Positions 575 to 63,641 of a stretch of 64,000 nucleotides of DNA are shown in pieces. This DNA comes from Nonlabens ulvanivorans (GTDB lineage Bacteria; Bacteroidota; Bacteroidia; Flavobacteriales; Flavobacteriaceae). The stretch lies in contig NZ_JPJI01000032.1 of assembly GCF_000732625.1 (NCBI RefSeq), positions 1,431,180 to 1,495,179 of the forward strand. Direction: 5' to 3'. Both the position numbers and the translations under genes were made by a program. Positions within the stretch are counted from its first letter, which is position 1, and each line of letters starts with the position of its first letter. The notes beneath the pieces were generated by a model. The model saw only the letters and a program-made list of their open reading frames with translations. It did not search any database and was not told where the DNA came from.

Positions 575-594
575 TACGCTTTCGCGAAAGCGTA
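575..594. repeat. Iterated palindrome, intergenic copy
   Basis: Perfect 20-bp palindrome TACGCTTTCGCGAAAGCGTA carrying the 14-bp core GCTTTCGCGAAAGC. It lies 11 bp beyond the stop codon of the minus-strand secreted protein gene. It can fold as a hairpin with a CGCG loop but has no T-run, so it is not a classical terminator. Confidence 0.95.
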
Positions 595-604
595 ACACAT
601 TAAC

Positions 605-3600
605 TTACTTTTTCACAAATTTTAATGATTGCCATAAATTGTTATTCTTAATGGCTACAAAGTAAATTCCCGTTTCAAAATTACTGCTATCAATTCCATC
701 ATTAGTATTATAATTACCTTCCATTATTATTCTACCGTTGATGTCGTAAATAATAAATTGATTATCATCTAGAGTCTCACCTTGAATATAAAATTGACTA
801 ACCGTAGGGTTAGGATATAGTTTTAAGGTTTCTTTTTGTGAGATAAATGAATCATTAGATAGTATTGCGCAACCACAATCATCTTGAGAATAGTAAAAGA
901 ATTTTCGTTGACATGGATTATAGCTTATTGCTATAGGACAACCATTAGAAAAATAGTCCACGATTCTAGTAACTACCCAATCACATCTTAAGTCATTTAT
1001 GCCTGATGAGGTATCATTGAGCCCGAATTGATTACCAATTCCGGTTGTGTTGACATTTGGGAAAGTGCCTGTTGTAAATGCTCCATTATTTTCGTGGTAA
1101 TACATTCTACCTCCAGAACTATTAGGTAATAGCGGATCACTTAGTAATAAATCTATATCGCCATCACAATCTACGTCGTAGAGTTCTGGAGTAGGATAGC
1201 TGCCACTGTTTTCAGGAATGAATGGGTTAGTTATTCCATTCCCAAATGAGGTATAGTTTTGTGGACTAACTAAATTAAAAAACGGATAAGAAGTTGAACC
1301 ATTATTCTCAAAGTAAACAGTTCCAGGGAAATTCACACTCTGCGAGGATAGCAAAATATCTGGCAATCCATCATTATTAATATCTCCTACGGCAAGTAAT
1401 GCTGGACCATATCGATAATCTATATTATCAAATAATAATTGTACCCCAAAACTAAAATTACCGGAACAGTCATTATAGTATACTACAGTAGATGTATTAA
1501 CACCATATACTACGATGTCTAAACATCCATTATTATTCCAGTCGTATAATCTGTAGGAAAGAGCATTTTGAATATTCATATTCACTGGCGGCATATTAAA
1601 AACAGGAGTGGTATTTGTACCAGCTGTATTTTCTAACCAATACAAAACTGGAAAACCAGAACTGCTGTCCATTTTTGTATATAGAATATCTATGTCACCA
1701 TCATTGTCTATATCACCATATTCCTTATCGAGAGTGCTAAAGCGATCAGTATCTAATTCTTGTTCAATCGCTAATGGAAATAAATTACCAGCTGCGGTTT
1801 GATATGGCAAGAAATCAAGAGGTTCACATTGATCAAGAGGCGAGTCTATGGAAAGTTCAACAAGATTACTAGGAATTATAATACCTGTTCCTGCATCACA
1901 ATTAACGAGGTAAGCACTGTTTGATACAATAGAATTTGTTCCTGCATTAATGGAAGGAAAACTAGCGTTTAAATCGATCGTGAAACTATTCCCAGGATTA
2001 AGAATCGTATTATTTTCATATAAAACTGTCTGAGTAGTACTGGAAGAATTACTACTACCTGTGGATACTGTATTACAATTAAAATTATTTGAAGACGTAG
2101 TATTTGATGGAGTGGTATTGAGATAAGACACATTAAAATCTGGAGCAATAGATGAAACATTTACCATGGAGAAACTACTATTCCGTGGTAAAACTGTAGG
2201 GAAATAGACATCACCTGCAGCAGGTAGCTCATCAATAATTTGGAATTGATTTAACGCTTTGTTCCCAAAGTTCTCAACCGTCATTCTATAGTAAACATCA
2301 ATATTACATGTTGGGTCATAAATCAAAGGACCATCTTGAAAGGTAATATTATCGTCAGATATTTGTTTTTTTAAGGATATGACTACAGATTCTATGACAT
2401 TCACTTTAGCAAAATCAGTGGTTACAGATAAGTTATTTGCACTATCTGTTATAGTCGCAACATTATCTATATTCCCTGGTACTGTAAATGGCTTTACTCT
2501 TACTTTAACTATAGCACAAAAGAATTGATTTACAGTATTTAAACAGGTATTTGCAGCAAAGAAGCTGGAGCAATTTTCAACTAAATTTAAAGAGTTCCAA
2601 GTCAGATTTTGACCACTTTGAGTAAAAGTAGTTCCAGCAGGCATATTAGAATTATCTACAGAAATAAATTCATACTTAGAGTCTAAAACATCTGTAAGAA
2701 CACCATTGAAGTCCAGACTACCGTTGTTCTGAACACATATTTCAAATTCTAGTTCATCAGTAGGAACTATGTTTGTGATACTGGTTTGATAGGGATCACC
2801 AGTATTAGCTTTTCGTACTTTTTTAACAGCACATAGTTTTACTTCTTCGGCAGCTACAGTAAATGATGCGCAACTGTTATTAGAAAAAGAGACATTTGTC
2901 GCAGGAGCTTCAAGTAGTATTTCCCCTTGAAAATCTGAACAATTTGTAACTACAGTACCAATCGTTAATGCGGGATCAACTGAAAATAAGATTGAAATGT
3001 TTAATTGATCACCAGGGAAAAGAAGTGTATTATTCTGTGCGCTCAACTGTAAACTATTACCTGTTGTTATAGGAGTAAAAACACCATTATAGCCAGTACT
3101 TAAGTCTACAGGAATAGCAGGATTTCCATTCAGGATGAGATCAAAGTTGGTATTTTGAGAAGCACTATTTATAAGACCACTTATTTGCACAGTTTGAGGT
3201 ATGATATCAAAAGGTAAATTATCTATGATATCGACCATTGCAACAGGTCTATTATCAGTATTTGAATACAAAATATCATATACACCTTGACAACCTGCCA
3301 CTGGATTAGTTATAAAAACATTCTTAACCATTGAACTACCTAAAGTAGGCGGTGGTAAATTATCAACAGCCGTTACCGTTGCCGTATCACTTGCTATAGC
3401 TGTTACAGGAGTACCACCTATCGGTGTACCATTTAATTCAACAGTATTTGAAATAATCTGTCCATTTGTGAATGCTGGACAATTGCTGTAATCTACTTCT
3501 ACAATAAACTGAACGTTCTCAAATGGATTAGAACCTATTAGGTTATTATTAAGAGTAATAATGTTCGTTACCGGATCAAGTGTTCCAGGACCACTTATTA

Positions 3601-4324: not shown

Positions 4325-4377
4325 AAATTTAATTTTAATTCGAGTGCATTTACTCATAAAACTTATGGTTAATAACT

Positions 4378-5513: not shown

Positions 5514-5529
5514 CGCTTTCGCGAAAGCG
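5514..5529. repeat. Iterated palindrome, intergenic copy
   Basis: Perfect 16-bp palindrome CGCTTTCGCGAAAGCG, 34 bp before the start of the small plus-strand gene and in the spacer between divergent genes. Confidence 0.95.
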
Positions 5530-5562
5530 TAACAATTATGCCCTATCTGCTACTAATGAAAT

Positions 5563-10682: not shown

Positions 10683-10696
10683 GCTTTCGCGAAAGC
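10683..10696. repeat. Iterated palindrome between convergent genes
   Basis: Perfect 14-bp core GCTTTCGCGAAAGC in the 33-bp gap between two converging genes. Flanks are not palindromic and there is no T-run. Confidence 0.95.
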
Positions 10697-12633: not shown

Positions 12634-12749
12634 TGGATTAAACCTATTAATTTTAAAAAACATAGTCATAGAAAAATGTGAAATACTACCATAAGCATTA
12701 AAAGAATAGACACTCATTTGTTAAATTGCAAGCTGTTAAAACAAATACA

Positions 12750-14285
12750 TTGAAAATACTAAGCGCACAACAGCTAGCAGAAGCTGATCAGTCTACCATA
12801 GATAAGAACCAGATCTCGAGCAATGATTTAATGGGGCATATCGCAAAACTTATATTTGATAAGATTCACCAGCGATTGCAGGGATCACCTGTACCCATTA
12901 AAATATTTTGTGGCATAGGAAAAAATGGTGGTGATGGACTAGCTCTTGCGAGACAAATGATTCAACATGGTTATCATGTCACGACTTATGTAACCAATTG
13001 CAGTAAAAAGCGTGCGCCAGAATTTTTATATCATTATGATAAAATAAAAGAGGTTACTAAAGACTGGCCTATTTTACTTTCTTGTAAAGAAGATTTTCCT
13101 GATTTGCATCCACAGGATATAATAATAGATGCCATATTTGGAACTGGAATTAATAGACCTATCGATGGCTGGATGGCAGATCTAGTACATTATCTTAATA
13201 AAACGCCTGCCTTTAAACTTGCGATAGATATGCCTAGTGGTTTGTATGCAAACACACCACAAGATATAGCCACACCTATAATACAGGCACAGCACACGTT
13301 CTCATTTGAGACACCTAAACTTAGTTTTTTCTTATCACAGACAGGTAAATTTACAGGTACTTTTGAGGTTGTTCAAATAGGACTTGATCCAGAATACATG
13401 ATGAAAGCAGCACCGCTGGCACAAATCATTACACCAGATGCTGCAAAAAGCATGTATAAGCCACGCGATAAATTTAGTCATAAGGGCGATTATGGGCATG
13501 TGCTCACAATGGCTGGTAGTAAAGGAAAAGTAGGCGCTGCAGTGCTTTCCAATAGTGCAGCATTGAACATGGGAGCTGGAAAAGTGACTGCATATATTCC
13601 TGCACATGCAAATGTCATTTTACAAAGTAGCTTACCAGAAATCATGACCATATCTAGTTTAGGTGAAAATTTCATTACTGATTTTGAGCATGATATAAAA
13701 GACATCACTTTATGTGTAGGTCCTGGATTAGGTACTGGTGATGATGTGAGTTCCGCTTTCGCGAAAGCGTTATCACAACAGTCTCTACCAGTAGTAATCG
13801 ATGCAGACGGGTTAAACATTCTATCTGATAACTCTGATTATTGGAAATTAATTCCTAAAAACTCCATTTTAACACCACATGATGGTGAGTTAGAAAAACT
13901 GATAGGGCAGTGGAAGGATGATTATGATCGTCTAGAGAAAGCTAAAAAGCTATCAATAGATAAAGACGTTATTTTAGTTCTTAAAGGAGCACACACTATA
14001 GCCGTATCTGGTAAGAATCTTTATATTAACGATACAGGTAATCCTGGAATGGCAACAGCAGGTAGTGGAGATGTTCTATCTGGTATAATAGCTGGCTTAC
14101 TGGCTCAAAAATACGATGCACTAACGGCAGCTGTATTTGGGGTGTTTTTGCATGGTAGAGCTGGTGATATAGCTAGTCAAACCTATGCCCATGAAGGGTT
14201 AAAGGCAAGTATTATATCAAATTTTGTAGGTGCTGCAATACTAGATTTATTTAGACCAGAACCTCAACAACCGCAGCAACAATAA
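12750..14285 (+). CDS. nnr: Bifunctional NAD(P)H-hydrate epimerase / ADP-dependent dehydratase
   Basis: This repairs damaged NAD(P)H hydrates. The N-terminal NnrE (YjeF_N) domain has FCGIGKNGGDGLALARQM and IIDAIFGTGINRPI. The C-terminal NnrD domain has HKGDYGHVLTMAGSKGKVGAAVLS, VGPGLGTGDD, VIDADGLNIL, SILTPHDGELEKLIG and NDTGNPGMATAGSGDVLSGIIAGLLAQ. I choose a TTG start at 12750, giving MKILSAQQLAEAD, the usual family opening; another TTG at 12726 would add eight residues. There is no nearby ATG. An iterated palindrome lies inside the dehydratase domain and is read as AFAKA at residues 336-340, in the helix before VIDADGL. Downstream is hutH. Confidence 0.93.
   Translation: MKILSAQQLAEADQSTIDKNQISSNDLMGHIAKLIFDKIHQRLQGSPVPIKIFCGIGKNGGDGLALARQMIQHGYHVTTYVTNCSKKRAPEFLYHYDKIKEVTKDWPILLSCKEDFPDLHPQDIIIDAIFGTGINRPIDGWMADLVHYLNKTPAFKLAIDMPSGLYANTPQDIATPIIQAQHTFSFETPKLSFFLSQTGKFTGTFEVVQIGLDPEYMMKAAPLAQIITPDAAKSMYKPRDKFSHKGDYGHVLTMAGSKGKVGAAVLSNSAALNMGAGKVTAYIPAHANVILQSSLPEIMTISSLGENFITDFEHDIKDITLCVGPGLGTGDDVSSAFAKALSQQSLPVVIDADGLNILSDNSDYWKLIPKNSILTPHDGELEKLIGQWKDDYDRLEKAKKLSIDKDVILVLKGAHTIAVSGKNLYINDTGNPGMATAGSGDVLSGIIAGLLAQKYDALTAAVFGVFLHGRAGDIASQTYAHEGLKASIISNFVGAAILDLFRPEPQQPQQQ
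13754..13769. repeat. Iterated palindrome inside nnr
   Basis: Perfect 16-bp palindrome CGCTTTCGCGAAAGCG inside the NnrD domain, in frame as Ala-Phe-Ala-Lys-Ala. Confidence 0.95.
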
Positions 14286-19806: not shown

Positions 19807-19824
19807 ACGCTTTCGCAAAAGCGT
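19807..19824. repeat. Iterated palindrome, degenerate copy
   Basis: ACGCTTTCGCAAAAGCGT, one substitution from the perfect 18-bp form, in the divergent clpC-gyrA spacer. Confidence 0.8.
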
Positions 19825-19995: not shown

Positions 19996-22518
19996 ATGGC
20001 AGATGGAGAAAAGTTAATCCCGATTAACATCGAGGATGAGATGAAATCAGCATACATCGATTACTCGATGTCAGTCATAGTGTCACGAGCACTGCCAGAT
20101 GTGCGAGATGGATTAAAACCAGTACACAGGCGTGTTCTTTACGGTATGTATGAGCTAGGTGTATTGTCTAATAGAGGATATAAAAAGAGTGCGAGAATAG
20201 TAGGTGAAGTATTAGGTAAGTACCACCCACATGGTGATACGTCTGTTTACGACACTATGGTGCGTATGGCGCAAGATTGGTCACTACGATATATGCTTGT
20301 TGATGGTCAAGGTAACTTTGGTAGTGTTGATGGTGATCCACCAGCAGCTATGCGTTATACTGAGGCTAGAATGAGAAAAATATCTGAAGAAATTCTTGCA
20401 GATATAGATAAAGAAACTGTAGATACACAGCTCAATTTTGATGATACATTAAATGAGCCTACTGTAATGCCTACTAGAATTCCTAACTTATTAGTTAATG
20501 GAGCTTCTGGTATCGCTGTAGGTATGGCTACTAACATGCCGCCACACAACCTTACAGAAGTTATTGATGGAACTATTGCTTACATAGACAATAATGACAT
20601 TGAGATCGATGAATTAATGACGCATGTAAAAGCTCCAGATTTTCCTACTGGTGGTATTATATATGGTTATGATGGTGTTAAGGATGCTATGCATACAGGA
20701 CGAGGACGTATTAAAATACGTGGTCGTGTGAGACTAGAAGAAGTAAAAGGTCGAGAATGTATCATCGTTGATGAATTACCATATCAGGTGAATAAAGCTG
20801 ATATGATTAAGAAAACGGCAGATCTAATTAACGAGAAGAAATTAGAAGGTATCTCTATGATTAGAGATGAGTCTGACCGTAATGGAATGCGTATCGTTTA
20901 TATTTTAAAACGTGATGCAATTCCTAATATTGTCATCAATAAATTATATAAGCATACGGCTTTACAATCTTCTTTTAGTGTTAATAATATTGCCCTTGTA
21001 AAAGGACGTCCACAACTTCTTAATGTAAAAGAGATGATCCACTATTTTGTGGAACATAGACACGAAGTAGTTGTAAGACGCACACAATTTGAATTGCGTA
21101 AAGCAGAAGAAAGAGCCCACATTCTTGAAGGATTAATTATTGCTTCTGATAATATAGATGAAGTTATTGCTTTAATAAGAAGTAGTAAGAATGGAGAAGA
21201 GGCTCGCGAAAAATTAATTGAGCGCTTTGAGCTATCAGAAATTCAAGCTCGAGCAATTGTAGAAATGCGTTTAAGACAACTTACCGGTCTTGAACAGGAT
21301 AAGTTACGTAATGAATACGAAGACTTAATGGCTACAATCACTGACTTAAAAGATATTCTTGCAAATAGAGATCGTCGTATGACGATTATTAAAGAAGAAT
21401 TAATTGAAGTACAGGAAAAGTATGGAGATGAACGTCGTTCTCAAATAGAATATGCAGGTGGTGATTTATCCATAGAAGATATGATTGCTGATGAACAGGT
21501 TGTTATAACTATTTCTCATGCAGGATATATTAAAAGAACTCCTATTACTGAGTATAAAACTCAAAATAGAGGTGGAGTTGGGCAAAAAGCAAGTACAACA
21601 CGTGATGAGGACTTCCTAGAGGATATTTTTGTAGGGACCAATCATCAATATATGTTGTTCTTTACAGAGAAAGGAAAGTGTTTCTGGATGAGAGTTTATG
21701 AAATTCCTGAAGGTAGTCGTACATCTAAAGGTAGAGCGATTCAAAATCTAATAAATATTGAACAAGACGATAATGTAAAAGCTGTCATCTGTACTCAAGA
21801 TATTAAAGATGAAGACTATATTAATAGTCATTATGTGATCATGTGTACTAAAAAAGGTGTGGTGAAGAAAACATCTTTAGAACAGTATTCCAGACCACGT
21901 ACTAACGGTATTAATGCAATAACTATTCGTGAAGGAGATACTTTATTAGAGGCTAAGCTTACAACTGGTGATAGTCACGTGATGTTGGGTCTTAAAAGTG
22001 GTAAGGCTATCAGATTTGACGAAGCAAAAACACGTGCTATGGGTAGAAATGCTAGCGGTGTTAGAGGAATAAGACTTGCAGATGATAGTGATGAGGTAAT
22101 CGGTATGGTTGCTGTAAATGATATGGATTCTAATATTTTAGTAGTATCCGAAAAAGGATATGGTAAAAGGTCTAGTCTAGATGATTATAGAGAAACCAAT
22201 CGTGGAGGAAAAGGTGTGAAAACAATTTCTGTTACTGAAAAAACCGGAGGATTAGTAGCTCTTAAGAATGTAACGGATGATGATGGACTTATGATCATCA
22301 ATAAGTCAGGAGTTGCTATACGTATTGATGTTAAAAACCTGAGAGTTATGGGACGTGCAACCCAAGGAGTGCGTTTAATTAATTTAAAAGGAAACGATTC
22401 AATTGCCGCTGTCGCGAAAGTTGCTCAGGAAGAAGACTCTGAAATCAATGAAGACGGTAGTGACGCTGATTTGAATAGTGATGGCACGACTGTTGTAAAT
22501 GATGATAGCGAAGAATAA
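19996..22518 (+). CDS. gyrA: DNA gyrase subunit A
   Basis: The 840-residue type II topoisomerase subunit starts [26 protein letters not shown]. The breakage-reunion domain contains the quinolone-resistance region [17 protein letters not shown] (Thr82 at the position of E. coli Ser83, Asp86 as usual) and the catalytic tyrosine in AAMRYTEAR at Tyr121. The C-terminal beta-pinwheel carries the GyrA-box-like QNRGGVGQ and repeated [16 protein letters not shown] blades, which separates it from ParC. The tail is acidic. A TPR-protein gene follows 17 bp downstream. Thr at position 82 may be natural in this lineage, and I do not claim resistance. Confidence 0.96.
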
Positions 22519-30222: not shown

Positions 30223-32270
30223 GTCCTAGATATTTCAATAGAGAATTAAGCTGGTTAAAATTTAATAATCGTGTTTTACAAGAAGCTGCAGACATAAATG
30301 TTCCTTTAATTGAAAGATTAAGATTTTTAGGAATCTTTTCTAACAACTTAGATGAGTTTTTTAGAGTTAGATATGCAACCATACAGCGTATATTAAGAGC
30401 TGGCAAGAATGCTACAAAATCATTAGGTGGAGTTACTGCGGCGGACTTATTAGAAAAAATAACTGCCGAGGTTATAAAAGATCAAGCCAAGAGTTTTGAA
30501 GTGCTAAACCAACTTGAAGAGGAACTAAGAAATGAAAATATCATTCTAGTAGATGAAACTGAAATTCTTCCCCAACATGAAAATTACATCAGATCTTATT
30601 TTAATAATTATGTGAGTCCTGCACTTGCAACTATAATGGTAAGTGATGAGTCTGAATTTCCAACCTTGCGAGACGGTTTAGGATATTTGGCTGTAAGAAT
30701 GGTAATGAAAGATTCAAGTTTACCTGTAAGATATGCGCTCCTAGAAATTCCAAAATCACTAAATCGTTTTATAGAGTTACCTTCAATTGATGGTGATGAT
30801 AAACAATATATTATCCTTTTAGATGATTTGATTAGAGATAGGATGCACTATATCTTCAATATTTTTGAATACAGCCATCTAGAAGCGCACATGATTAAGG
30901 TGACTCTTGATGCAGAGTTAGACATCGATATTGACCTTAAAAAAAGTCTCATTGAAAAAATAAGTCGTAGTGTTAAAGATCGCAAAGACGGTGATCCAGT
31001 AAGATTTGTCTATGATAAATCGATTCATCAAGAAACACTAGATTTTATTATGAGCAAGGTAGAAATAGATGATACAGATTCTATAATACCAGGTGGTCGT
31101 TATCACAATAGACGTGATTATTTAAAGTTTCCTTCACTAGGTAGGACAGATTTATTGTATGAGAAAAAAACTCCATTACCTATAAAAGGAGTATCTATGA
31201 GAGGTAGTCTATTAGAGAAAATTTCTCAAAGAGATATTTTACAATATGCACCATATCATACCTTTTCTAATACGGTTAAATTTTTAAGAGAAGCTGCTTT
31301 AGACCCTAAAGTGCTTAACATTAAAATTACAATTTACAGACTTGCAGAAGTTTCCCAAATCGCAGCATCATTAATAAATGCTGCAAAAAATGGTAAAGAA
31401 GTTACAGTTTCAATAGAGCTTCAAGCAAGATTTGATGAACAGGCAAATATTAATTATGCAGAACTAATGCAGGAAGAAGGAGTTAAGCTCATCTTTGGAG
31501 TTCCTGGTCTTAAAGTGCATTGTAAAGCTTGTGTTATAAATAGAGAAGAGGATGGTAAAATAGTAAGATATGGATTCATATCTACTGGTAATTTTAATGA
31601 GGCTACAGCAGGTATTTATACAGATTACACCTTGTTTACTGCAAATAAAAAAATTCTTAAAGAAGTAGATAAAGTATTTGACTTTTTTGAAGTTAATTAT
31701 AAGTTATATAGATACAAACATCTTCTAGTATCTCCTCACTCACTTAGAAATAATATAGAGAAAAAGGTTCGTCGAGAAATCGCTTTCGCGAAAGCGGGAA
31801 AAAAAGCACATTTAAGAATGAAATTGAATAGTTTCTCTGATTTTAAGATGATAGAACTATTCTATGAAGCGTCTAATGCAGGTGTTCAAATAGATCTTAT
31901 CATTAGAGGTATATGTTGTTTAATTCCTGGAGTGATAGGTATGAGTGAAAATATTAAGGTTATTAGTATCGTAGATAAGTATCTTGAGCACCCAAGAGTC
32001 TATCAGTTCTATAATGATGGAGATGTAGAGGTATATATATCAAGTGCAGATATGATGGGGCGCAATCTCGATAACCGTGTTGAAATTGCTTGTCCTATAT
32101 ATGATGAATCTGTTAAGAAAGAAATTTTAGATACCTTAGATATCTGCTGGAATGATAATGTAAAAGCCAGAGAGATATGTTCAGAACAACTTAATTTATA
32201 TGTAAAACAGGATGATAGCCCTATACGATCCCAATTTGTTACATATGATTATTACAAAAATCAACTTTAA
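30219..32270 (+). CDS. ppk1: Polyphosphate kinase 1
   Basis: The 683-residue enzyme reversibly transfers the ATP gamma-phosphate to polyphosphate. The N-terminal RYFNRELSWLKFNNRVLQEA and LDEFFRVRYATI are typical. The phosphorylated His lies in VPGLKVHCKACVI, and the second active-site His in VDKYLEHPRVYQFYNDGD. It starts inside the stop of the SixA-like gene and ends three bases before ppx. An iterated palindrome inside the gene is read as AFAKA at residues 522-526, next to KKVRREI, in a surface-type basic segment. Confidence 0.96.
   Translation: MSPRYFNRELSWLKFNNRVLQEAADINVPLIERLRFLGIFSNNLDEFFRVRYATIQRILRAGKNATKSLGGVTAADLLEKITAEVIKDQAKSFEVLNQLEEELRNENIILVDETEILPQHENYIRSYFNNYVSPALATIMVSDESEFPTLRDGLGYLAVRMVMKDSSLPVRYALLEIPKSLNRFIELPSIDGDDKQYIILLDDLIRDRMHYIFNIFEYSHLEAHMIKVTLDAELDIDIDLKKSLIEKISRSVKDRKDGDPVRFVYDKSIHQETLDFIMSKVEIDDTDSIIPGGRYHNRRDYLKFPSLGRTDLLYEKKTPLPIKGVSMRGSLLEKISQRDILQYAPYHTFSNTVKFLREAALDPKVLNIKITIYRLAEVSQIAASLINAAKNGKEVTVSIELQARFDEQANINYAELMQEEGVKLIFGVPGLKVHCKACVINREEDGKIVRYGFISTGNFNEATAGIYTDYTLFTANKKILKEVDKVFDFFEVNYKLYRYKHLLVSPHSLRNNIEKKVRREIAFAKAGKKAHLRMKLNSFSDFKMIELFYEASNAGVQIDLIIRGICCLIPGVIGMSENIKVISIVDKYLEHPRVYQFYNDGDVEVYISSADMMGRNLDNRVEIACPIYDESVKKEILDTLDICWNDNVKAREICSEQLNLYVKQDDSPIRSQFVTYDYYKNQL
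31781..31796. repeat. Iterated palindrome inside ppk1
   Basis: Perfect 16-bp palindrome CGCTTTCGCGAAAGCG, read in frame as Ala-Phe-Ala-Lys-Ala. Confidence 0.95.
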
Positions 32271-35836: not shown

Positions 35837-36144
35837 AGCAGGTCGCTCTATCGCTTCTTATGAAGAGGAAAGTCCGGGCACCATAGGATAGTATAACGGT
35901 TAATGGCCGTCATTACGCTTTCGCGAAAGCGTAATAGGACTAGTGCAACAGAAAGTATGTACAGGTAATGCTGTAGTGAAACCAGGTAAACTCTATACGG
36001 TGAAATGTTGCGTATATCAGAGCTTGAGCGCGATCCGCGCGATTCTGAAGGGTAAACAGATAGAGGTTGCAAGTAATTGTAATTCTAGATAAATGATAGA
36101 GTGCTTGAGAAATCAAGTAACAGAATCCGGCTTATAGACCTGCT
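35837..36144 (+). ncRNA. rnpB: RNase P RNA (type A)
   Basis: This RNA is the catalytic part of RNase P, which matures tRNA 5' ends. The universal P4 region GAGGAAAGTCCGGGC is at 35865-35879, and the matching 3' conserved region ACAGAATCCGGCTTATAGACC at 36120-36140. Helix P1 pairs AGCAGGTC (35837-35844) with GACCTGCT (36137-36144). Helix P8 is ACGG-loop-CCGT (35896-35910). By comparison with the remembered E. coli layout, the next hairpin is P9, and here it is formed entirely by the iterated palindrome at 35912-35935. A T-run (36144-36150) follows P1 and ends the transcript. Confidence 0.96.
35912..35935. repeat. Iterated palindrome forming RNase P helix P9
   Basis: A perfect 24-bp palindrome: ATTACGCTTT, CGCG, AAAGCGTAAT. 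It is the longest symmetrical copy in the window. In the RNA it would be a ten-base-pair hairpin with a CGCG loop between P8 and the conserved ACTAGTGCAACAGAAAG segment. Confidence 0.93.
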
Positions 36145-40846: not shown

Positions 40847-42274
40847 ATGACTGCAGCAGAATATTACAAAATAATACACACCGATTTTCCTTTTGTCCCT
40901 ACAAATGAGCAAGATAGAGCGCTTGAAGAGCTCTCTTCTTTTGTCATTGATAAAGATAAGGACAGACTATTTTTATTAAAAGGATATGCCGGAACAGGAA
41001 AAACGACTATAATTAGTGCCATTGTTAAGAATATATGGAAAGCCAAAATGAGTTGTGTGCTGCTTGCACCTACAGGTCGAGCGGCAAAAGTAATTAGTAG
41101 TTATAGTAATAAAACGGCTAGTACGATACATCGTGAAATTTATTATCCCAAAGCACAAGGTAAAGGTGGAAATGTAGAGTTTACCTTAAAACAAAATAAG
41201 CATCGTAATTCCTTATTTATAGTAGATGAGTCTTCAATGATACCTGATGTTGCTAGTGAGAACAAAATGTTTGGTGGTAATGGTTCTTTACTAGATGACT
41301 TAATTGAGTATGTATATTCTGGTATAGGTTGCATTCTTCTCTTAATAGGAGATACAGCTCAATTACCACCTGTAAAACTAGACGTTTCCCCTGCTTTAGA
41401 ACCTACTCTATTAGAACAACGTTATTTAAAAGAGGTTACTTGTATTGAACTGGATGAGGTAAAGCGACAAGAAAAGGATTCTGGCATATTGCTAAATGCT
41501 ACACGTATTAGAAATCATATAGAAGAACTAGATAACGACTTCAAATTTGATGTAGACCCATTTATTGATATTAATAGACTTATCGATGGTCACGAGATTA
41601 TGGAGGCTATTCAAACAGCTTATGACACTCAAGGACATGAGGAAACTGCCATTATCGTTAGGTCTAATAAAAGAGCAAATTTATATAATCAACAAATTCG
41701 GTCTAGGATTCTTTTTCGCGAAAGCGAACTAGCATCTGGCGACTACCTTATGGTGGTAAAAAACAATTACCACTGGTTAAAGCCCAGTAGTGCTGCTGGT
41801 TTTATAGCAAATGGAGATATTATAGAAATTTTAGAAATTTATAATTTTAAAAATATTTATGGCTTCAGATTTGCAGAGGTAAAGGTGCGTATGGTAGATT
41901 ATCCAGATGAAAAACCTTTTGAAACAGTACTATTGCTTGATACACTCGAGTCAGAATCTCCATCTTTAACTTATGATGATTCAAATAAACTATATCAAGA
42001 AGTGAGAATGGATTATCTTAAGTTACCAAAATGGAAACAATATAAAGAGATTAAAGAAAACCCGTTTTTTAATGCGCTACAAGTTAAATTCTCCTATGCA
42101 ATAACTTGTCATAAATCACAAGGTGGACAATGGGAAAATGTGATAGTAGAACAACCATATTTACCAGATGGTCCATCAAAGGATTATTTGCGCTGGTTGT
42201 ATACCGCTGTGACGCGTGCCAAAACAAATTTGTATCTTATAGGCTTTAATAAGGATTATTTTATAGAATCATAA
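40847..42274 (+). CDS. RecD-like superfamily 1B DNA helicase
   Basis: The 475-residue product has Walker A KGYAGTGKTT (45-54), Walker B-like LFIVDESSMIPD, motif III LLIGDTAQLPPV, and the UvrD_C_2 end KFSYAITCHKSQGGQWENVIV plus WLYTAVTRAKTNLYLIGF. It belongs to the small AAA_30/RecD-like helicases and lacks the N-terminal helix-hairpin region of full RecD2. No recB or recC is near. A degenerate copy of the iterated palindrome (41712-41725) is read as LFRESE around residue 290, in the loop before helicase motif IV-type sequence. It heads a plus-strand operon through kdsB. Confidence 0.88.
   Translation: MTAAEYYKIIHTDFPFVPTNEQDRALEELSSFVIDKDKDRLFLLKGYAGTGKTTIISAIVKNIWKAKMSCVLLAPTGRAAKVISSYSNKTASTIHREIYYPKAQGKGGNVEFTLKQNKHRNSLFIVDESSMIPDVASENKMFGGNGSLLDDLIEYVYSGIGCILLLIGDTAQLPPVKLDVSPALEPTLLEQRYLKEVTCIELDEVKRQEKDSGILLNATRIRNHIEELDNDFKFDVDPFIDINRLIDGHEIMEAIQTAYDTQGHEETAIIVRSNKRANLYNQQIRSRILFRESELASGDYLMVVKNNYHWLKPSSAAGFIANGDIIEILEIYNFKNIYGFRFAEVKVRMVDYPDEKPFETVLLLDTLESESPSLTYDDSNKLYQEVRMDYLKLPKWKQYKEIKENPFFNALQVKFSYAITCHKSQGGQWENVIVEQPYLPDGPSKDYLRWLYTAVTRAKTNLYLIGFNKDYFIES
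41712..41726. repeat. Iterated palindrome, half-degenerate copy in the RecD-like gene
   Basis: TTTTTCGCGAAAGCG, with the right half intact and two changes in the left. Read in frame as Phe-Arg-Glu-Ser (290-293), a different frame from the AFAKA copies. Confidence 0.7.
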
Positions 42275-42276: not shown

Positions 42277-42879
42277 ATGGAATGGATTACATCAAATTTT
42301 GAAATTTTTGTCAGTATATGCCTGGGAATAGGACTTTCTGCTAGTGCTGGATTTAGAGTTTTTGTACCGCTTTTATTTTTAAGTATCGCGGCTTACATGG
42401 GTATGGTACCGCTTAATCCAGATTGGGCTTGGGCAGGTAGTTTAAGCGCAGTTCTCATACTAGGTGTTGCAGCGATTGTAGAGTTAATGGCTTATTATAT
42501 ACCTTATGTAGATAACTTATTAGACACTATCACCGTACCGCTAGCGGCCATTGCTGGTACTGCAGTTATGGTAAGTGTAGTAGGAGATTTAGATCCTGTA
42601 TACACCTGGACACTAGCGATTATTGCAGGTGGTGGAACTGCAGCAAGTGTAGCTAGCACTGCTGGTGCTGCTCGTTTAACCAGTACAGCAACCACTGGTG
42701 GTATAGGTAATCCTGTAATAAGTACTGCCGAGGCAGGTTTTAGTGGTATTCTAAGCTTTCTTTCTTTAATAGCACCTATTTTTGCAGCAGTAATTGTTGT
42801 GTTGATTTTTATTGCAATTAGAAAACTGTACAAGAAGTTATTTAAGAAAAAACCGCTTCCGCGAAAGCCGATTTCATAA
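42277..42879 (+). CDS. DUF4126 membrane protein
   Basis: The 200-residue product has several hydrophobic helices rich in Gly and Ala: ICLGIGLSASAGFRVFVPLLFLSIAAYMG, AVLILGVAAIVELMAYY, VMVSVVGDLDP, IIAGGGTAASVASTAGAARLTSTATTGGIGNPVISTAEAGFSGIL and IFAAVIVVLIFIAIRKLY. These match DUF4126. It starts two bases after the helicase stop. The C-terminal PLPRKPIS is encoded by a one-mismatch copy of the iterated palindrome (42855-42868), so the repeat forms the protein's tail. Function unknown. Confidence 0.82.
   Translation: MEWITSNFEIFVSICLGIGLSASAGFRVFVPLLFLSIAAYMGMVPLNPDWAWAGSLSAVLILGVAAIVELMAYYIPYVDNLLDTITVPLAAIAGTAVMVSVVGDLDPVYTWTLAIIAGGGTAASVASTAGAARLTSTATTGGIGNPVISTAEAGFSGILSFLSLIAPIFAAVIVVLIFIAIRKLYKKLFKKKPLPRKPIS
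42855..42868. repeat. Iterated palindrome, one-mismatch copy in the DUF4126 gene
   Basis: GCTTCCGCGAAAGC, one change from the core, within the last few codons (LPRKP, residues 194-198). Confidence 0.75.
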
Positions 42880-45305: not shown

Positions 45306-46244
45306 ATGAAAAAGATATTATTAGGAGCAGGAATAGTAGTCGTTTTATTGCTAGCAGTAAGTGCTGTGCAACAAAACTCTAGTCTTCAAGAAATGGAGCC
45401 TATGAAGACTCCAGAGTTAAAAGATCCATCACGAGTGGGCGATTATGGAGTATATGCGTTAGAGCTTCCTAAAACATTAGATTTTGCAGGAGAATCTGTA
45501 CCCTTACATCATCCTGATATTAAAGAGCGTGCAGACCGTGAATTTTTAGTAAATACCTACTGGCAATCTAACGGAATCATGCTAGTTAAAAAATCAAAAA
45601 AATATTTTCCTGTTATAGAAGCTATACTGGCAGAAGAAGGAATCCCAGATGACTTTAAATATCTAGCGGTTATTGAGAGTGGTCTCGATAATGTAAAGTC
45701 ACCTGCAGGAGCTAGTGGTTTCTGGCAAATAATGAGCGCAACTGGTAAAGAATTGGACTTAGAAGTAAATAGTAATGTAGATGAACGTTACCACCTAGAG
45801 AAAGCCACACGCGCTGCTTGTAAATACTTAAAGGATAGTAAAGAAAGAATGGGAACATGGACACTTGCTGCTGCTGCCTATAATGCGGGAAATGCTGGAA
45901 TAAATCGCGAGTTAGAGCGACAACAAGCAACTTCTTATTATGATTTATTGCTAGGACAGGAGACAGGTAGATATGTGTTTAGGATTCTAGCGTTAAAAGA
46001 AATTCTTAAAAGTCCAGAAAGCTTTGGTTTTAATGTGGAGCCTGAGCAATACTATTACCAAGTACCTACTAAAAAAATCTTAGTGGATTATGAGATTGAT
46101 GATTTAGCAGCTTTCGCGAAAGCGAACTCTATAAACTATAAAATTTTAAAAATCCATAATCCATGGTTGAGAGAAAATAAGTTGAATAACAAGTCTGGGA
46201 AATTATACGAAATTGAAATTCCAGAAAATGGTTACTACGACTAG
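45306..46244 (+). CDS. Membrane-anchored lytic transglycosylase
   Basis: The 312-residue product has an N-terminal membrane helix (MKKILLGAGIVVVLLLAVSAV) and an SLT domain: catalytic Glu in FKYLAVIESGLDNVKSPAGASGFWQIMSATG, then DERYHLEKATRAACKYLKDSKERMGTWTLAAAAYNAGNAGINREL. It cleaves glycan strands to anhydromuropeptides. The C-terminus has a short LysM-like tail (LVDYEIDDLAAFAKANSINYKILKIHNPWL). The iterated palindrome encodes AFAKA at residues 269-273 in that tail. It lies two bases before the cardiolipin synthase gene. Confidence 0.92.
   Translation: MKKILLGAGIVVVLLLAVSAVQQNSSLQEMEPMKTPELKDPSRVGDYGVYALELPKTLDFAGESVPLHHPDIKERADREFLVNTYWQSNGIMLVKKSKKYFPVIEAILAEEGIPDDFKYLAVIESGLDNVKSPAGASGFWQIMSATGKELDLEVNSNVDERYHLEKATRAACKYLKDSKERMGTWTLAAAAYNAGNAGINRELERQQATSYYDLLLGQETGRYVFRILALKEILKSPESFGFNVEPEQYYYQVPTKKILVDYEIDDLAAFAKANSINYKILKIHNPWLRENKLNNKSGKLYEIEIPENGYYD
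46110..46123. repeat. Iterated palindrome inside the lytic transglycosylase gene
   Basis: Perfect 14-bp core GCTTTCGCGAAAGC, read in frame as Ala-Phe-Ala-Lys-Ala. Confidence 0.93.
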
Positions 46245-49062: not shown

Positions 49063-49078
49063 CGCTTTTGCGAAAACG
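49063..49078. repeat. Iterated palindrome, degenerate copy within left 57-bp repeat
   Basis: CGCTTTTGCGAAAACG, two differences from the perfect form. The first (T for C) is shared with the copy in the right 57-bp repeat, so the two have a common ancestor. Confidence 0.75.
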
Positions 49079-52463: not shown

Positions 52464-52479
52464 CGCTTTTGCGAAAGCG
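52464..52479. repeat. Iterated palindrome, one-mismatch copy within right 57-bp repeat
   Basis: CGCTTTTGCGAAAGCG, one change from the perfect 16-mer, the same T-for-C change as in the left 57-bp repeat. Confidence 0.8.
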
Positions 52480-54873: not shown

Positions 54874-57400
54874 CACTATTCTTTTTAACAGGTTGATCAT
54901 CTACACCTATACTTACCATATTAGCAAGTAATTTGTAAGCTCCAGAAACACCAGCAGGTAACTCTCTAAAAAGGCTGAGACCTGTATATATGATATGCCC
55001 ATTACCATATCTCGCCACAATTAAACTACCATTAGTCATCTCTTCACCGTTATCATTCATTCCTAGAATAGGAGTAAAGGCTGGATCCCATTTTTCTGGA
55101 AAATACAATCCACGTTCTTGCACCCAATTTTCAAAATCAACACTTGTAATTTTGTTAGGCTTGTTTAAAATCGCATGATCAGGTTCTAATAAAGTTACAG
55201 CCGCATTTTCATCGGTTACACGCTTTCGCGAAAGCGTAATAGACAACGGCCCTAGTGCATCTGGATTTATACGTCTGCTTGTGTTGTACTGCATCATTAA
55301 CGTCCCACCATTTTTTACATAGGTATCGATACGTTCTTGCAAGGCTGCCATTTCAGTAGGTGCGACGTTAAACGCCCTAATTCCTACCACAACAGCATCA
55401 TATTTTGATAAATCACTAGGAACCTCGCTAGGTTCAAAACGGAATACTTTTGATCCTATCGCTTCTATTGCGGTGGCAACATCATCGCCGGCGCCATTAA
55501 TATAAGCCACTGTGGTAGCTCTATTTTTAAGATTAGGTTTAACAACTTGAGCTTCATTGTTGCGCACTAACTGTTGATCTGGTATATGGTTATAATCTAT
55601 AGAAATAACCTCTTTAGAAAATGATTGATCACCTATTTTTACCAGACCACTTACCACACCACGTGAGGCTCTTTTAGGAGGTGCTATGTTAAAATTATAA
55701 GTACGCACGGTTCCTGAAGTCATGGCGTCAAATTCAATTTTAGAAGGTTTGATCATCCAGTCATTAGGTGCGCATAGCTCAATAGTTCCCGCATTTAAAT
55801 CTGTATTTGCGGTCATGCTTACCTGTATTATTTTAGATTCCTCATTAAAAATATAAACTGGATTTTGAACACTTACAGATACGGCAGGTACAACATTTAA
55901 TGGCTCATGTATCTCACCTCGTACAGGATCAGTTGATTTATATTGAATTTTTAAGTCTCTATAGATTTTTATATTCTGTATGGTTACTACTGCCTTTACT
56001 GCAAATGGTGATTCAAGTTCTGGCAAACCTCTTTCATTCATAGCCTTAACAGTATACATACCTACGGATGCTTGTTCATTAAGGTAATAAGGTGACGTGG
56101 GCTGGAAGTACTGCGGTATCGTTAGGGTACCTTTTACAATTGTACTGGAATTAGATGTGGTGTTAATTTGAGTTTGATCTAACGCTATCATATTATTAGC
56201 CGATAAGGAAATATTTATCTCATCATTAGATCTATTTGTTACCTCAACATTAATAGGTGTGGTGGCACCATCAGTAATATATTGTTGATTTGAGCTCGCT
56301 TCTAGATAAATACCACTGATTTGAAGAATAATATCTTCAAGTTCTCTTAATTTGATGGCTTTCCAGTGCTCATCTTTAAGTCTAGAAATGGCTTGATGCA
56401 ACTCAGCTAGTGCTGGTAGACTAGCTTCAGGATTTTTAAAATCATAACTCGATAGAATTTTATTAAGTTGGGTTTGAATTTTAGATCCACCAGATACTCG
56501 TGTCCAAGTAGTATTAATGCCCGAGAACAAATCTGATTTATCGGTTGGGAATGAGCCTTCTAAATACTCGAGATATTCAGTTTGTGATCCTCTAGAACCA
56601 CTACTACCAAAACCTTGTGATTTATGCTCACTGCGACTTAATGCGGCAATCTCACTGTTAGATAAACCATTCCATGGGTAATAAGTTCCGGCATCGATCT
56701 CTAGTAAGTTGGTTTTGTCTGCTTTTTCAAAAGCTTCTTGACTTCCGTAAAACCACCAACTAGTATTAAAAAATATACGTTGAGGTTGCCATGTGTCTAG
56801 GCGACTTAATTGACTCGCATATGCTGTTTTAAGTGCTGCACTTTTAAATGCAGTCATGCTTAACATAGCACTGGTTGTATGATGACCATGAGTGGTACCA
56901 GGCGTGCGATGATTAAATCGGTTGATGATGACATCTGGTTTAAACGTTCTTATGATTTGCACCATGTCTTCAAGAACTTCTTGTTGATTCCATATTTCTA
57001 GGGTTTCATCTGGATGTTTAGAATAGCCAAAATCGTTTGCACGTGTAAAGAACTGCTCGCCGCCATCTCGATGTCTCGCTTCTAGCAATTCTTGTGTGCG
57101 TATCATACCTAATTGCTCACGCAATTCTGGACCTATAAGGTTTTGACCACCATCACCTCTGGTTAATGATAAGTAACCAGTACGTGCCATCTTATCATTA
57201 GAAAGCCATGAGATTAAACGTGTGTTTTCATCATCTGGATGAGCGGCTATGTATAGTGCCGTACCTAAAAAACCTAACTTCTCTAGATTGTGATATATCT
57301 CACTGGTATTGGGTTGTGTAGGGAATAATCGATTTTCTTGAGCTGTGGCGTGACCTAGGAATAAAAGGGACGCAATAAAAGTAAAAATTGGTTTCTTCAT
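54860..57400 (-). CDS. Exported PIG-L family deacetylase, multidomain
   Basis: The 846-residue product has a signal peptide (MKKPIFTFIASLLFLGHATAQ) and a PIG-L/LmbE metal-dependent deacetylase domain: zinc ligands in IAAHPDDENTRL and TTHGHHTTSA, with RGDGGQNLIGPE between. About 250 residues of beta-sandwich follow, then a C-terminal class I glutamine-amidotransferase-like or ThuA-like domain (DAVVVGIRAFNVAP, YVKNGGTLMMQYNTSRR). It probably removes N-acetyl groups from extracellular glycans. The iterated palindrome at 55220-55237 encodes TLSRKR (residues 722-727). It heads the chain peptide-SSS-GYF_2. Confidence 0.88.
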   Translation of the reverse strand: MKKPIFTFIASLLFLGHATAQENRLFPTQPNTSEIYHNLEKLGFLGTALYIAAHPDDENTRLISWLSNDKMARTGYLSLTRGDGGQNLIGPELREQLGMIRTQELLEARHRDGGEQFFTRANDFGYSKHPDETLEIWNQQEVLEDMVQIIRTFKPDVIINRFNHRTPGTTHGHHTTSAMLSMTAFKSAALKTAYASQLSRLDTWQPQRIFFNTSWWFYGSQEAFEKADKTNLLEIDAGTYYPWNGLSNSEIAALSRSEHKSQGFGSSGSRGSQTEYLEYLEGSFPTDKSDLFSGINTTWTRVSGGSKIQTQLNKILSSYDFKNPEASLPALAELHQAISRLKDEHWKAIKLRELEDIILQISGIYLEASSNQQYITDGATTPINVEVTNRSNDEINISLSANNMIALDQTQINTTSNSSTIVKGTLTIPQYFQPTSPYYLNEQASVGMYTVKAMNERGLPELESPFAVKAVVTIQNIKIYRDLKIQYKSTDPVRGEIHEPLNVVPAVSVSVQNPVYIFNEESKIIQVSMTANTDLNAGTIELCAPNDWMIKPSKIEFDAMTSGTVRTYNFNIAPPKRASRGVVSGLVKIGDQSFSKEVISIDYNHIPDQQLVRNNEAQVVKPNLKNRATTVAYINGAGDDVATAIEAIGSKVFRFEPSEVPSDLSKYDAVVVGIRAFNVAPTEMAALQERIDTYVKNGGTLMMQYNTSRRINPDALGPLSITLSRKRVTDENAAVTLLEPDHAILNKPNKITSVDFENWVQERGLYFPEKWDPAFTPILGMNDNGEEMTNGSLIVARYGNGHIIYTGLSLFRELPAGVSGAYKLLANMVSIGVDDQPVKKNSDEKF
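55220..55237. repeat. Iterated palindrome inside the PIG-L gene
   Basis: Perfect 18-bp palindrome ACGCTTTCGCGAAAGCGT, read on the minus strand as Thr-Leu-Ser-Arg-Lys-Arg, the frame that avoids AFAKA. Confidence 0.95.
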
Positions 57401-57543: not shown

Positions 57544-57565
57544 ATACGCTTTCGCGAAAGCGTAT
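57544..57565. repeat. Iterated palindrome, intergenic copy
   Basis: Perfect 22-bp palindrome: ATACGCTTT, CGCG, AAAGCGTAT, plus one more pair. It lies nine bases beyond the stop of the minus-strand small membrane protein gene and has no T-run. Confidence 0.95.
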
Positions 57566-60102: not shown

Positions 60103-60110
60103 TAATTTTG
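60103..60110 (+). promoter_or_regulatory. -7 promoter element for icmF (TAATTTTG)
   Basis: An exact TAnnTTTG match 24 bp before the icmF ATG. No good -33 TTG was seen at the expected distance. Confidence 0.55.
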
Positions 60111-60134
60111 CTTTTATAAATTGAGAATATCATA

Positions 60135-63100
60135 ATGCAAGATCAAACTCCATATATCCCAGTAAATAAAGTACGTATCGTAACTGCAGCTAGTCTTTTT
60201 GACGGTCATGATGCCGCAATTAATATTATGCGTCGTATCATTCAATCTACCGGTTGTGAAGTCATTCATTTAGGTCACGATAGAAGTGTAGAAGAAGTAG
60301 TAAATACTGCTATTCAAGAAGATGCAAATGGTATCGCCATGACCTCTTATCAAGGTGGTCATAACGAGTACTTTAAGTATATGCGTGATTTATTAGTAGA
60401 AAAAGGCGCAGGACACATCAAGATTTTTGGTGGTGGTGGTGGAGTGATTCTACCATCAGAGATTCAAGAATTGATGGATTATGGAATCACACGCATCTAT
60501 TCACCAGACGATGGACGTGAGATGGGATTGCAAGGAATGATTAATGATTTAGTGAAGCAATGTGATGTTCCTGTACCTGCTTTCGCGAAAGCGCAATTAA
60601 ACGGAGAGCTACTAGAAAATCACGTTCCTACCATTGCTAGATTAATCTCGCTAGCCGAAAACCGTCACGATGATTTTACCAAACATTTTGCAGAAGCCGA
60701 TAAAACTGAAAAACAAGCACCAGTTCTAGGAATTACAGGAACCGGTGGTGCTGGTAAGTCATCACTTGTAGATGAATTAATACGCAGGTTTTTAATCGAT
60801 TTCCCAGAGAAAAATATAGGAATCATATCTGTAGATCCATCAAAACGTAAAACTGGTGGTGCATTACTAGGTGATAGAATACGCATGAATGCTATTAATA
60901 ACGATCGTGTTTACATGAGGTCTCTGGCAACTCGACAATCTAATCTAGCACTTTCTAAACATGTGCAAGAAGCAGTTGACGTTTTAAAAGCTTCAGACTA
61001 TGATTTAATCATTTTAGAAACTAGTGGAATAGGGCAGAGTGATACTGAAATCTTAGAACACAGTGATGTGTCATTATATGTAATGACTCCAGAATTTGGT
61101 GCGGCGACACAACTAGAGAAAATCGACATGCTTGATTTTGCAGACGTAGTGGCAATCAATAAATTTGATAAACGTGGTTCACTAGATGCATTACGCGATG
61201 TAAAAAAACAATACCAGCGCAATCATAACTTATGGGAAGCAGATCCTGCAACGCTACCAGTTTATGGAACCATAGCAAGCCAATTCAACGATCCAGGAAT
61301 GAATGCGTTGTATGAAGCGCTAATGGCTGAGGTTACAGAGAAAACAGGTGTGGACTTAAGTTCTAAAAATGAACTTAATAAAGCGCAAAGCGAAAAAATC
61401 TTTGTAATTCCTCCAGCAAGAACACGTTACTTAAGTGAGATTGCCGAAAGTAATAGAGCTTATGATAATACTGCTGCAGCTCAATCTAAAGTGGCACAGA
61501 AATTATATGGTGTTTTTCAAACGGTCAATACTTTATTAGATCAAAATGAAAACGCACCTGCGGTAGAAAACAGAGAGCGTTTAATTACCGATAAAGGATT
61601 AAATGAAGAGTACATTTTATCTCTAGTTTTGGCAGACGATGTAGATTTTATGAATCTTCTAATCGCACAATTCAACAAATCATTAAAAGACCTTGATCCA
61701 TATAACTGGGAAGTAATTACCGGTTGGGATGAAAAAGTAAATAAGTACAAGCAACCTATTTATGAGTTTCAAGTACGTGACAAAGTCATTAAAATTGAAA
61801 CACATACAGAGTCACTATCTCACAAAATGATTCCTAAGGTAGCGTTGCCTAAATACAGCGCTTGGGGCGATATTTTAAAATGGTGCTTACAAGAAAACGT
61901 GCCAGGAGAATTCCCTTATACAGCAGGATTATATCCTTTCAAACGCACTGGAGAAGATCCTACCAGAATGTTTGCCGGTGAAGGTGGACCAGAACGTACT
62001 AATAAGCGTTTCCACTACGTGAGTCTAGGTATGCCAGCAAAACGTTTAAGCACAGCTTTTGATAGTGTGACTCTTTACGGTAATGATCCAGGATTGCGAC
62101 CAGATATTTATGGAAAAATCGGTAATGCTGGAGTAAGTATTTGCTGTCTGGATGATGCAAAGAAATTGTATTCTGGTTTTGATTTGTCGCACGCTATGAC
62201 CTCGGTTTCTATGACTATTAATGGTCCAGCGCCTATGCTATTAGGGTTCTTTATGAATGCTGCCATCGATCAGAACTGTGAACGATTTATCACTGAGAAT
62301 GGTTTAGGCGATAAAGTAGAGGCAAAGCTTAAAGAGGTTTATGATGATAATAATGTAGAACGTCCTTCTTATTTAAACGCTCAAGGCGAAAAAGTATATT
62401 CTAAAAACGGACAGGTTGATACCAGCAAACTGCCTGAAGGTAATGACGGTTTAGGTTTAATGCTTCTTGGTTTAACAGGAGATCAAATCCTAGATCCAGC
62501 AGACTATGCTCGTATCAAGATGGAAACGCTAGCGCAAGTGCGTGGTACCGTTCAAGCAGATATCTTAAAAGAAGATCAAGCACAAAACACGTGTATTTTC
62601 TCTACAGAATTTGCACTGCGTTTGATGGGAGATGTACAGCAGTATTTTATTGAAGAAAAAGTGCGTAACTTCTACAGTGTGTCCATCTCAGGTTATCACA
62701 TTGCAGAGGCTGGTGCAAATCCTATCACGCAATTGGCTTTCACATTAGCAAACGGATTCACTTATGTAGAGTACTATTTGAGCCGTGGTATGGACATCAA
62801 TAAATTTGGTCCTAACCTGAGTTTCTTCTTCTCAAACGGTATCGATCCTGAGTATTCAGTGATCGGTCGTGTGGCGAGAAAGATTTGGGCCAAAGCGATG
62901 AAGAACAAATACGGAGCAAATTCTCGTGCTCAAATGTTGAAATACCACATCCAGACCAGTGGTCGTTCACTACATGCTCAAGAAATAGACTTTAACGACA
63001 TCCGTACGACATTGCAAGCACTGTATGCGATTAATGATAACTGTAACTCGTTGCATACTAATGCTTATGACGAGGCGATTACCACACCTACAGAAGAATC

Positions 63101-63641
63101 TGTAAGACGTGCGATGGCGATTCAGTTGATTATTAATAAAGAATTAGGTCTTGCCAAAAATGAGAACCCTATTCAAGGTGCATTTATCATAGAGGAGTTG
63201 ACGGATCTAGTTGAAGCGGCAGTTCTAGAAGAATTCGACCGCATTACAGAACGTGGTGGAGTTCTAGGAGCCATGGAAACCATGTACCAGCGCAGCAAGA
63301 TTCAAGAAGAATCTATGCACTATGAGATGTTAAAGCACACAGGCGAGTTCCCAATCATAGGAGTGAACACATTCTTAAGTTCTAAAGGTAGCCCAACCGT
63401 TTTACCAGCTGAGGTGATACGTGCGACTGAAGAAGAGAAACAAGCACAAATTAGTACTAAGGATAATCTACATACCGCTTTCGCGAAAGCGCAACAAGAA
63501 CAACTATCTAACATACAACAAGCTGCTGTTAAACAAGAAAATATTTTTGAGCATCTAATGGAAGCTACTAAGATTTGTACTTTAGGTCAGATTACTGAAG
63601 CGTTGTTTGAAGTAGGAGGACAGTATAGACGAAATATGTAA
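60135..63641 (+). CDS. icmF: Fused isobutyryl-CoA mutase (B12-binding, MeaB G-domain, mutase)
   Basis: The 1,168-residue adenosylcobalamin enzyme has three parts. The N-terminal B12 domain (1-145) has [31 protein letters not shown] and [10 protein letters not shown]. The MeaB-like GTPase chaperone starts at [18 protein letters not shown] (about 196-213). The mutase domain, about 590 to 1100, ends with [25 protein letters not shown]. It rearranges isobutyryl-CoA to n-butyryl-CoA; methylmalonyl-CoA mutase is the alternative, but this fusion is typical of IcmF. Two copies of the iterated palindrome are read as AFAKA: residues 149-153 in the linker between the first two domains, and 1115-1119 near the C-terminus. 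Confidence 0.95.
60579..60592. repeat. Iterated palindrome inside icmF, linker copy
   Basis: Perfect 14-bp core GCTTTCGCGAAAGC, encoding Ala-Phe-Ala-Lys-Ala at residues 149-153 between the B12 and GTPase domains. Confidence 0.93.
63476..63491. repeat. Iterated palindrome inside icmF, C-terminal copy
   Basis: Perfect 16-bp palindrome CGCTTTCGCGAAAGCG, encoding Ala-Phe-Ala-Lys-Ala at residues 1115-1119, in a helix-rich segment ([12 protein letters not shown]). Confidence 0.95.

Follow-up and report, generated by a model that had tools for sequence, protein, structure and literature searches.

The 64-kb stretch of Nonlabens ulvanivorans DNA analysed here (the window) carries repeated copies of GCTTTCGCGAAAGC, a 14-bp perfect palindrome, eleven of them exact, three with one mismatch and three with two. 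The 17 matches within two mismatches compare with 0.08 expected from dinucleotide shuffles. The copies are distributed over genes and spacers as follows (coordinates of the window; no strand is assigned to a copy):

578..591, exact core, 13 bp past the stop of ORF 605-4357 (minus strand)
5515..5528, exact core, intergenic
10683..10696, exact core, flanked by a convergent ORF pair with ends at 10668 and 10702
13755..13768, exact core, in the YjeF/NAD(P)H-hydrate dehydratase ORF 12726-14285; all 6 aligned congeners have the exact core
19809..19822, copy with one mismatch, intergenic; exact in 7 of 7 aligned congeners
22408..22421, match with two mismatches, within ORF 19996-22518; a doubtful site
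31782..31795, exact core, within the polyphosphate kinase ORF; 10 of the 11 aligned congeners have the exact core
35917..35930, exact core, intergenic between divergent genes; exact in 7 of 12 aligned congeners
41712..41725, copy with two mismatches, within the RecD-like helicase ORF; several congeners are without the site, the length being unchanged
42855..42868, copy with one mismatch, close to the 3' end of the DUF4126 ORF
46110..46123, exact core, in the lytic transglycosylase (SLT) ORF; of 12 aligned congeners, 9 exact and 3 with one mismatch
49064..49077, copy with two mismatches, a stop codon lying 18 bp before it; exact in 3 of 5 aligned congeners
52465..52478, copy with one mismatch, a stop codon lying 13 bp before it
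55222..55235, exact core, within ORF 54860-57400 (minus strand); exact in 8 of 9 aligned congeners
57548..57561, exact core, intergenic
60579..60592, exact core, within the fused methylmalonyl-CoA mutase ORF
63477..63490, exact core, within the fused methylmalonyl-CoA mutase ORF, close to its 3' end

The preliminary description of this DNA had claimed an iterated palindrome at 16 positions, all of which proved real, with starts off by at most five bases, apparently because longer arms had been used as starts; the match at 22408, absent from that list, may be a chance match or a weak site. The arms vary in length, as had been stated, perfect symmetry extending 0-5 bases past the core on each side in an own-genome sample of 464 kb (the window and 400 kb beside it). 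In N. ulvanivorans JCM 19298 (L047) the counterpart of the site at 35917 is a shorter palindrome, GCTTCGCGAAGC, which looks like the product of symmetric one-base deletions.

The RecD-like helicase of the window is 99% identical to a protein of N. ulvanivorans JCM 19298 and 78-96% identical to the proteins at ten other loci, of which nine carry the label Nonlabens and one that of bacterium BBFL7. The iteration throughout the genome proposed from the window turned out to be larger than claimed, the own genome of 3.21 Mb containing 566 exact copies of GCTTTCGCGAAAGC and no copy of a control word, the pattern read backwards. A 16-bp form, CGCTTTCGCGAAAGCG, was present in all 23 Nonlabens genomes at 180-737 copies per genome. 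Among 299 genomes sampled from the family five were rich, namely three Nonlabens (566, 578 and 664 copies), G185 (408) and G200 (857), the last two belonging to other genera; 239 of the remaining 294 had no copy and 55 had 1-19. In the class sample of 197 the own genome alone was rich, 12 others having 1-4 copies and 184 none. Near relatives of the rich genomes have few or zero sites. An RpoB tree of 30 genomes placed G185 and G200 as sisters (support 0.77), adjoining the poor G142 (9 copies), with Nonlabens separate from them; its deep nodes were weakly supported, so that the word may have arisen twice, or once and been lost elsewhere. Only 29 matches were found in G142 when one mismatch was allowed, so a large set of decayed copies is not seen at this tolerance.

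The comparison with congeners showed that the exact window sites kept 14 of 14 bases in 45 of 57 alignable pairs, against 5.9% for random 14-mers, unalignable pairs being excluded from both figures and the pairs being non-independent, as the congeners are mutually related. Conservation at the same positions had earlier been taken as a sign of ordinary sequence, a reading that fails here, the conservation within the genus being far above that of neighbouring DNA. From 0.96 within the core, identity fell to 0.81 at the adjoining base and to 0.73-0.77 further out, and the substitution rate neither dipped nor rose with distance from the site. The 14 congener stretches contained 103 exact sites, of which 48 were unalignable, 40 had a window site and 15 were flagged as absent there; on inspection seven of these absences were the same site displaced by an alignment gap, and the eight clear presence/absence pairs that remained, at three coding loci, were without length difference in seven cases. 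A mobile element that changes the length at its site was rejected on these ungapped pairs at coding loci, and the suggested likeness to the Rickettsia palindromic elements is not borne out.

The spacing of the copies is even. In simulations weighted to keep the intergenic preference the expected CV was about 1.01, and the gap CV found in the 464 kb was 0.51 for the 82 exact copies and 0.46 for the 104 copies with up to two mismatches, none of 5000 simulations being equally even in either case; gaps below 1 kb numbered 0 against 14.5 expected for exact copies, and 1 against 22.5 when near-copies were included. G200 (CV 0.66, 0 of 5000 simulations) and G185 (CV 0.72, 15 of 5000) were less evenly spaced than the own genome. 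Four 60-kb congener stretches gave CVs of 0.37-0.42 with near-copies included (each 0 of 2000 simulations) and of 0.35-0.62 with exact copies only (G302 1, G313 26, G304 59 and G305 0 of 2000). Two observations count against evenness, a CV of 1.26 in the G307 stretch, owing to a single 24.6-kb gap, and gaps of 34 and 20 kb among the 16-bp copies listed for G299. The eight largest gaps of the own genome measured 7.6-12 kb, and one of them, without long ORFs and of higher G+C, is perhaps an rRNA operon.

With a simple ORF caller 55 of the 82 copies in the 464 kb lay inside ORFs and 27 in intergenic DNA, which makes up 8% of the sequence. The ORF copies favoured the frame Ala-Phe-Ala-Lys-Ala (31/55), and 17 of 23 distances measured between an intergenic copy and a 3' gene end were 4-27 bp. 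In G304 an asymmetric 20-base form ending in TAAT was found at 27 places, each chromosome half seemingly having mostly one orientation.

The counts in the 464 kb fall steeply with mismatch, from 82 exact copies to 15 with one mismatch and 7 with two. Forty single-mismatch Nonlabens copies, among which orthologues are counted repeatedly, were changed only at half-site positions 1, 2, 5 and 6, most frequently as T5C and C6T (12/40 each), T3, T4 and G7 being invariant. Elsewhere one of 19 single-mismatch copies in G200 altered G7, and none of nine in G185 altered positions 3, 4 or 7. Shortened or lengthened centres or arms were essentially absent from 546 kb of congener DNA, the two exceptions, one symmetric and one one-sided shortened form, both occurring in L047. 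The first base outside the core is C on the left in 86% and G on the right in 85%; beyond it the observed symmetry minus that expected from composition was +0.07, +0.05 and +0.04, and then about zero or below.

The flanks carry a signature of their own, the outward strand being G-poor and A/C-rich for about 30 bp on both sides, in genes and spacers. At a distance of 6-10 bp the outward skew is -0.67, declining to about zero at 36-40 bp; the signature was found also in G200 and, weaker, in G185. This signature and the even spacing are new beyond the preliminary description. Left and right flanks hardly covary, the observed minus expected complementarity being -0.14 to +0.10 in the own sites, with a maximum of +0.14 at one position in G185; therefore selection appears to act on the composition of the flanks and not on a longer hairpin. 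A hairpin with compensating arms, a trait of the REP and RPE type, was rejected because of this near-absence of arm covariation. The opinion that the element is not a terminator was upheld, the left flank being T-rich and the right one A-rich, the opposite of a terminator; an intrinsic terminator (hairpin and T run) was rejected on the A-rich right flank and on the 55 of 82 sites within ORFs.

Copies in the poor genera were examined in 20 stretches from 10 poor genomes. Many of these stretches contain gene blocks that recur in different genera and are 65-97% identical in DNA across segments of hundreds to thousands of bases, and six proteins tested from three stretches comprised an RND transporter, an outer-membrane efflux protein, a multicopper oxidase, an HlyD-type protein with metal-binding domains and two P-type ATPases. 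Such copper/heavy-metal resistance blocks (L016-L031) bring a palindrome of the Nonlabens type into flavobacterial genomes otherwise nearly without it, and are read as horizontally moved metal-resistance islands which retained the word of the donor. In G101, TTTCGCGAAA was found at 7 places (14 on both strands) within 57 kb of island stretches, with zero in 40 kb of G101 DNA outside them. The palindrome may flag horizontally moved DNA, the copper/heavy-metal blocks of poor genera carrying the word.

Scans of IMG/VR with the 16-bp and 15-bp forms gave at least 125 stretches. Among the matches listed, 30 of 125 stretches had at least two sites, near-copies counted; 41 distinct contexts from these 30 carry the flank signature, which was not seen in 75 contexts of the remaining listed stretches. 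As 21 of the 30 multi-site stretches listed form one group of related sequences, mainly one phage family is concerned. It has portal, head and tape-measure proteins, with an integrase in one contig, and its sites lie at host-like spacing. A search of 26 genomes for the head protein of the L206 phage, run without a positive control, gave no hit, and a 34-base consensus gave only chance-level matches (E 3-4) against phage and plasmid records. The closely related Nonlabens phages P12024S and P12024L (L257, L258), annotated with ERF and YqaJ-type recombinases, had zero sites within two mismatches; their CGCG counts were 9 and 10 against 43 and 45 expected, compared with 349 against 301 in the own-genome sample, a scarcity perhaps due to restriction avoidance. 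The phage data suggest that the sites matter beyond host genes, without deciding among uptake, recombination and spacing.

The observed copy number, even spacing, conservation, flank signature, position-specific tolerance and substitution at three coding loci form a pattern which fits a protein recognition site, and not a mobile element, a terminator or a TCGCGA methylase word. The probability that the copies of GCTTTCGCGAAAGC are sites recognised by a protein and kept under selection or drive is put at about 0.9. We infer both the protein that reads the sites and its part in self-DNA recognition; searches for ParB, AddAB-like and Y1 transposase genes gave no reader. ParB is single in G000, G302, G185 and G200, with two in G304, and a ParB paralogue reading the palindrome as in ParB/Noc sites was rejected, as four of these five rich genomes have no extra ParB.

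Each copy would be a site for a sequence-specific, symmetric (dimeric) DNA reader, consisting of a core of approximately KCTTYYGCRRAAGM and of outward G-poor, A/C-rich DNA of about 30 bp, on both strands. The reader would serve self-DNA recognition, most likely the import of DNA during natural transformation. Fragments bearing a site may be preferentially imported and recombined, in which case conspecific DNA would spread and repair the sites, and a single site on each imported fragment of about 4-5 kb would suffice, leading to even spacing. Such a system would work like the uptake signal sequences of Haemophilus, with a palindromic signal instead. The uptake route is advanced tentatively, at somewhat less than even odds, since the whole pattern matches the Haemophilus signals best, with the palindromic form and the phages as counterarguments. 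We know of no natural competence in Nonlabens. The phage family has sites at host-like spacing, which uptake alone does not require, the G200 copy altered at G7 counts against uptake as well, and own signals would be expected in other genera, a strong one being found only in G076. Natural competence occurs in some relatives of the wider group, and Riemerella columbina favours its own DNA, but F. johnsoniae was not competent in the same study, which is counted against uptake (excerpt of PMC7965970).

The regular spacing, the most regular property of the sites, could also be explained by an architectural protein bound every 4-5 kb that sets domains or condenses the nucleoid, prophages carrying sites because they are obliged to fit the spacing. 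Noc, MatP and SlmA provide comparable architectural binding at fewer sites. The symmetric dyad with its nearly fixed centre agrees with such a protein, as does the 20-base form of G304, whose 27 places extend over 0.09-2.73 Mb of the 2.9-Mb chromosome; however, the missing ParB paralogue, the survival of near relatives with few or zero sites, the gaps in G299 and a macrodomain pattern that was not seen in a small sample make this explanation doubtful. A little less probable still is a Chi-like recombination or protection site, at which a helicase-nuclease would halt from either side and RecA would be loaded on the GT-rich strand, phages exploiting the site as some lambdoid phages exploit Chi. 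About one site per 5 kb resembles the density of Chi in E. coli, the strands with a 3' end at the site are GT-rich on both sides, AddAB-like genes are present and phage contigs carry sites. All 13 genomes searched, rich and poor alike, have these genes, however, so that their presence does not separate the classes, divergence is flat near the sites, and the known Chi words are 5-8 bases long, read on one strand and biased in orientation. In phages with recombinase genes and an inhibitory effect on the host machinery, absence of Chi is selected for (excerpt of PMC3784561), with which the lack of sites in the recombinase-annotated P12024S and P12024L would accord, but this lack is confounded by their general scarcity of CGCG.

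The two remaining explanations are improbable to different degrees. A methylase or restriction system acting on TCGCGA, with the palindrome as by-product, would be in line with the palindromic form, with the frequent change of C6 to T (12/40) and with the association of HIP1 in Synechocystis with a CGATCG-specific methylase (excerpt of PMC5101192). TCGCGA, singled out earlier as a unit for methylation tests, occurs 118 times in the 464 kb, however, and the 30 occurrences outside the palindrome are at chance level (30.8 expected); about 14-16 bp are conserved, and composition further out, and methylase sites are usually shorter. This explanation is given little credit. A mobile palindromic element of the REP/RPE type spread by a transposase would account for the numerous near-identical copies, and Y1 transposases, a search for which had been advised, exist in five of eight rich genomes tested; they are absent from the other three (G304, G305 and G185), and with the ungapped pairs, the nearly absent arm covariation and the even spacing such an element is already contradicted and hardly credible.

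Words of another kind were encountered in other genera. The 9-mer TTTCCGAAG of G076 (L255, L256, L373-L375) occurs 33 times in 100 kb, where 0.3 copies would be expected, with 19 on one strand and 14 on the other and in all three frames, with 27% of copies intergenic against 11% of the sequence and with nearly all one-mismatch neighbours near background; its spacing is only mildly even (CV 0.71, 60 of 3000 simulations), and there is no avoidance of short gaps, six being below 500 bp where 5.0 are expected. This 9-mer could be either a dialect or a word of Chi or DUS type unrelated to the palindrome. Weaker signals were found in G101, G117 and G196, no word exceeded z 6 in four of nine other genera tested (G040, G014, G209 and G170), and 40-kb samples of ten other genera scanned for palindromes only gave no counterpart. 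In 40 kb of G117 (L249, L250) there were 9 copies of TACTGCGGA where 0.34 is expected, at 7 places at least 400 bp apart; it is perhaps another iterated word. Two candidates were discarded: AAATGCCTCCGG in G078, mostly a tandem repeat with five of six copies 333 bp apart, and TTTC[AT]GAAA in G076, in one reading frame in 20 of 28 cases and probably coding-driven.

One may speculate, as a possibility rather on the doubtful side, that flavobacteria use lineage-specific genome-wide words for self-DNA, an evenly spaced palindrome, which temperate-like phages share, in Nonlabens and a second lineage, and TTTCCGAAG in another genus. If true, this would be a signal system with dialects and an undescribed dimeric reader; we know of no earlier such system in Bacteroidota. 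Evenly spaced, genome-wide iterated words are rare, and the search for the function of the Haemophilus signal was still called inconclusive in 2007 (excerpt of PMC1939737). A palindrome in lineages whose near relatives lack the word offers a natural comparison for finding the reader, and the same comparison may tell uptake drive from chromosome architecture and from recombination.

No description of the palindrome was found in the literature searched, from which subscription papers were mostly outside, in agreement with the earlier statement that none was known. Among known systems, the Noc/ParB sites are likewise chromosomal palindromes of about 14-16 bp, but the Nonlabens word has far more copies and another sequence, and four of five rich genomes are without a ParB paralogue. 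With Chi it shares the density, a GT-rich strand adjoining the site and the presence on some phages; it is, however, palindromic and about twice as long, and AddAB-like genes are found also in genomes without the word. The supposed HIP1-like behaviour of a genome-wide iterated palindrome was upheld, HIP1 (GCGATCGC, cyanobacteria) being also iterated in genes and spacers; identity with HIP1 was rejected, GCGATCGC differing from GCTTTCGCGAAAGC in sequence and length. The Nonlabens word has 14-16 bp versus 8, far fewer copies, even spacing and a flank signature, and its central hexamer is not selected alone. The function of HIP1 is open (excerpt of PMC3219970). The uptake signals USS (Haemophilus influenzae) and DUS (Neisseria) are alike in their hundreds or more of copies in genes and spacers, their even spacing and intergenic excess, their steep fall with mismatch, their extended flanks (for USS) and their lineage specificity; in Haemophilus 65% of the signals are in ORFs, with intergenic excess and even spacing, and the known signals are non-palindromic (excerpt of PMC1939737). 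The Nonlabens word, a perfect palindrome, was for that reason not filed as USS/DUS, and it differs further in its longer core, its occurrence at about one per 5 kb, its presence on phages and its other phylum, known uptake signals being about four times denser (count from the excerpt of PMC1939737). With these signals it nevertheless shares a clear excess of the word, 566 copies against 0 of the control, and even spacing in ORFs and spacers.
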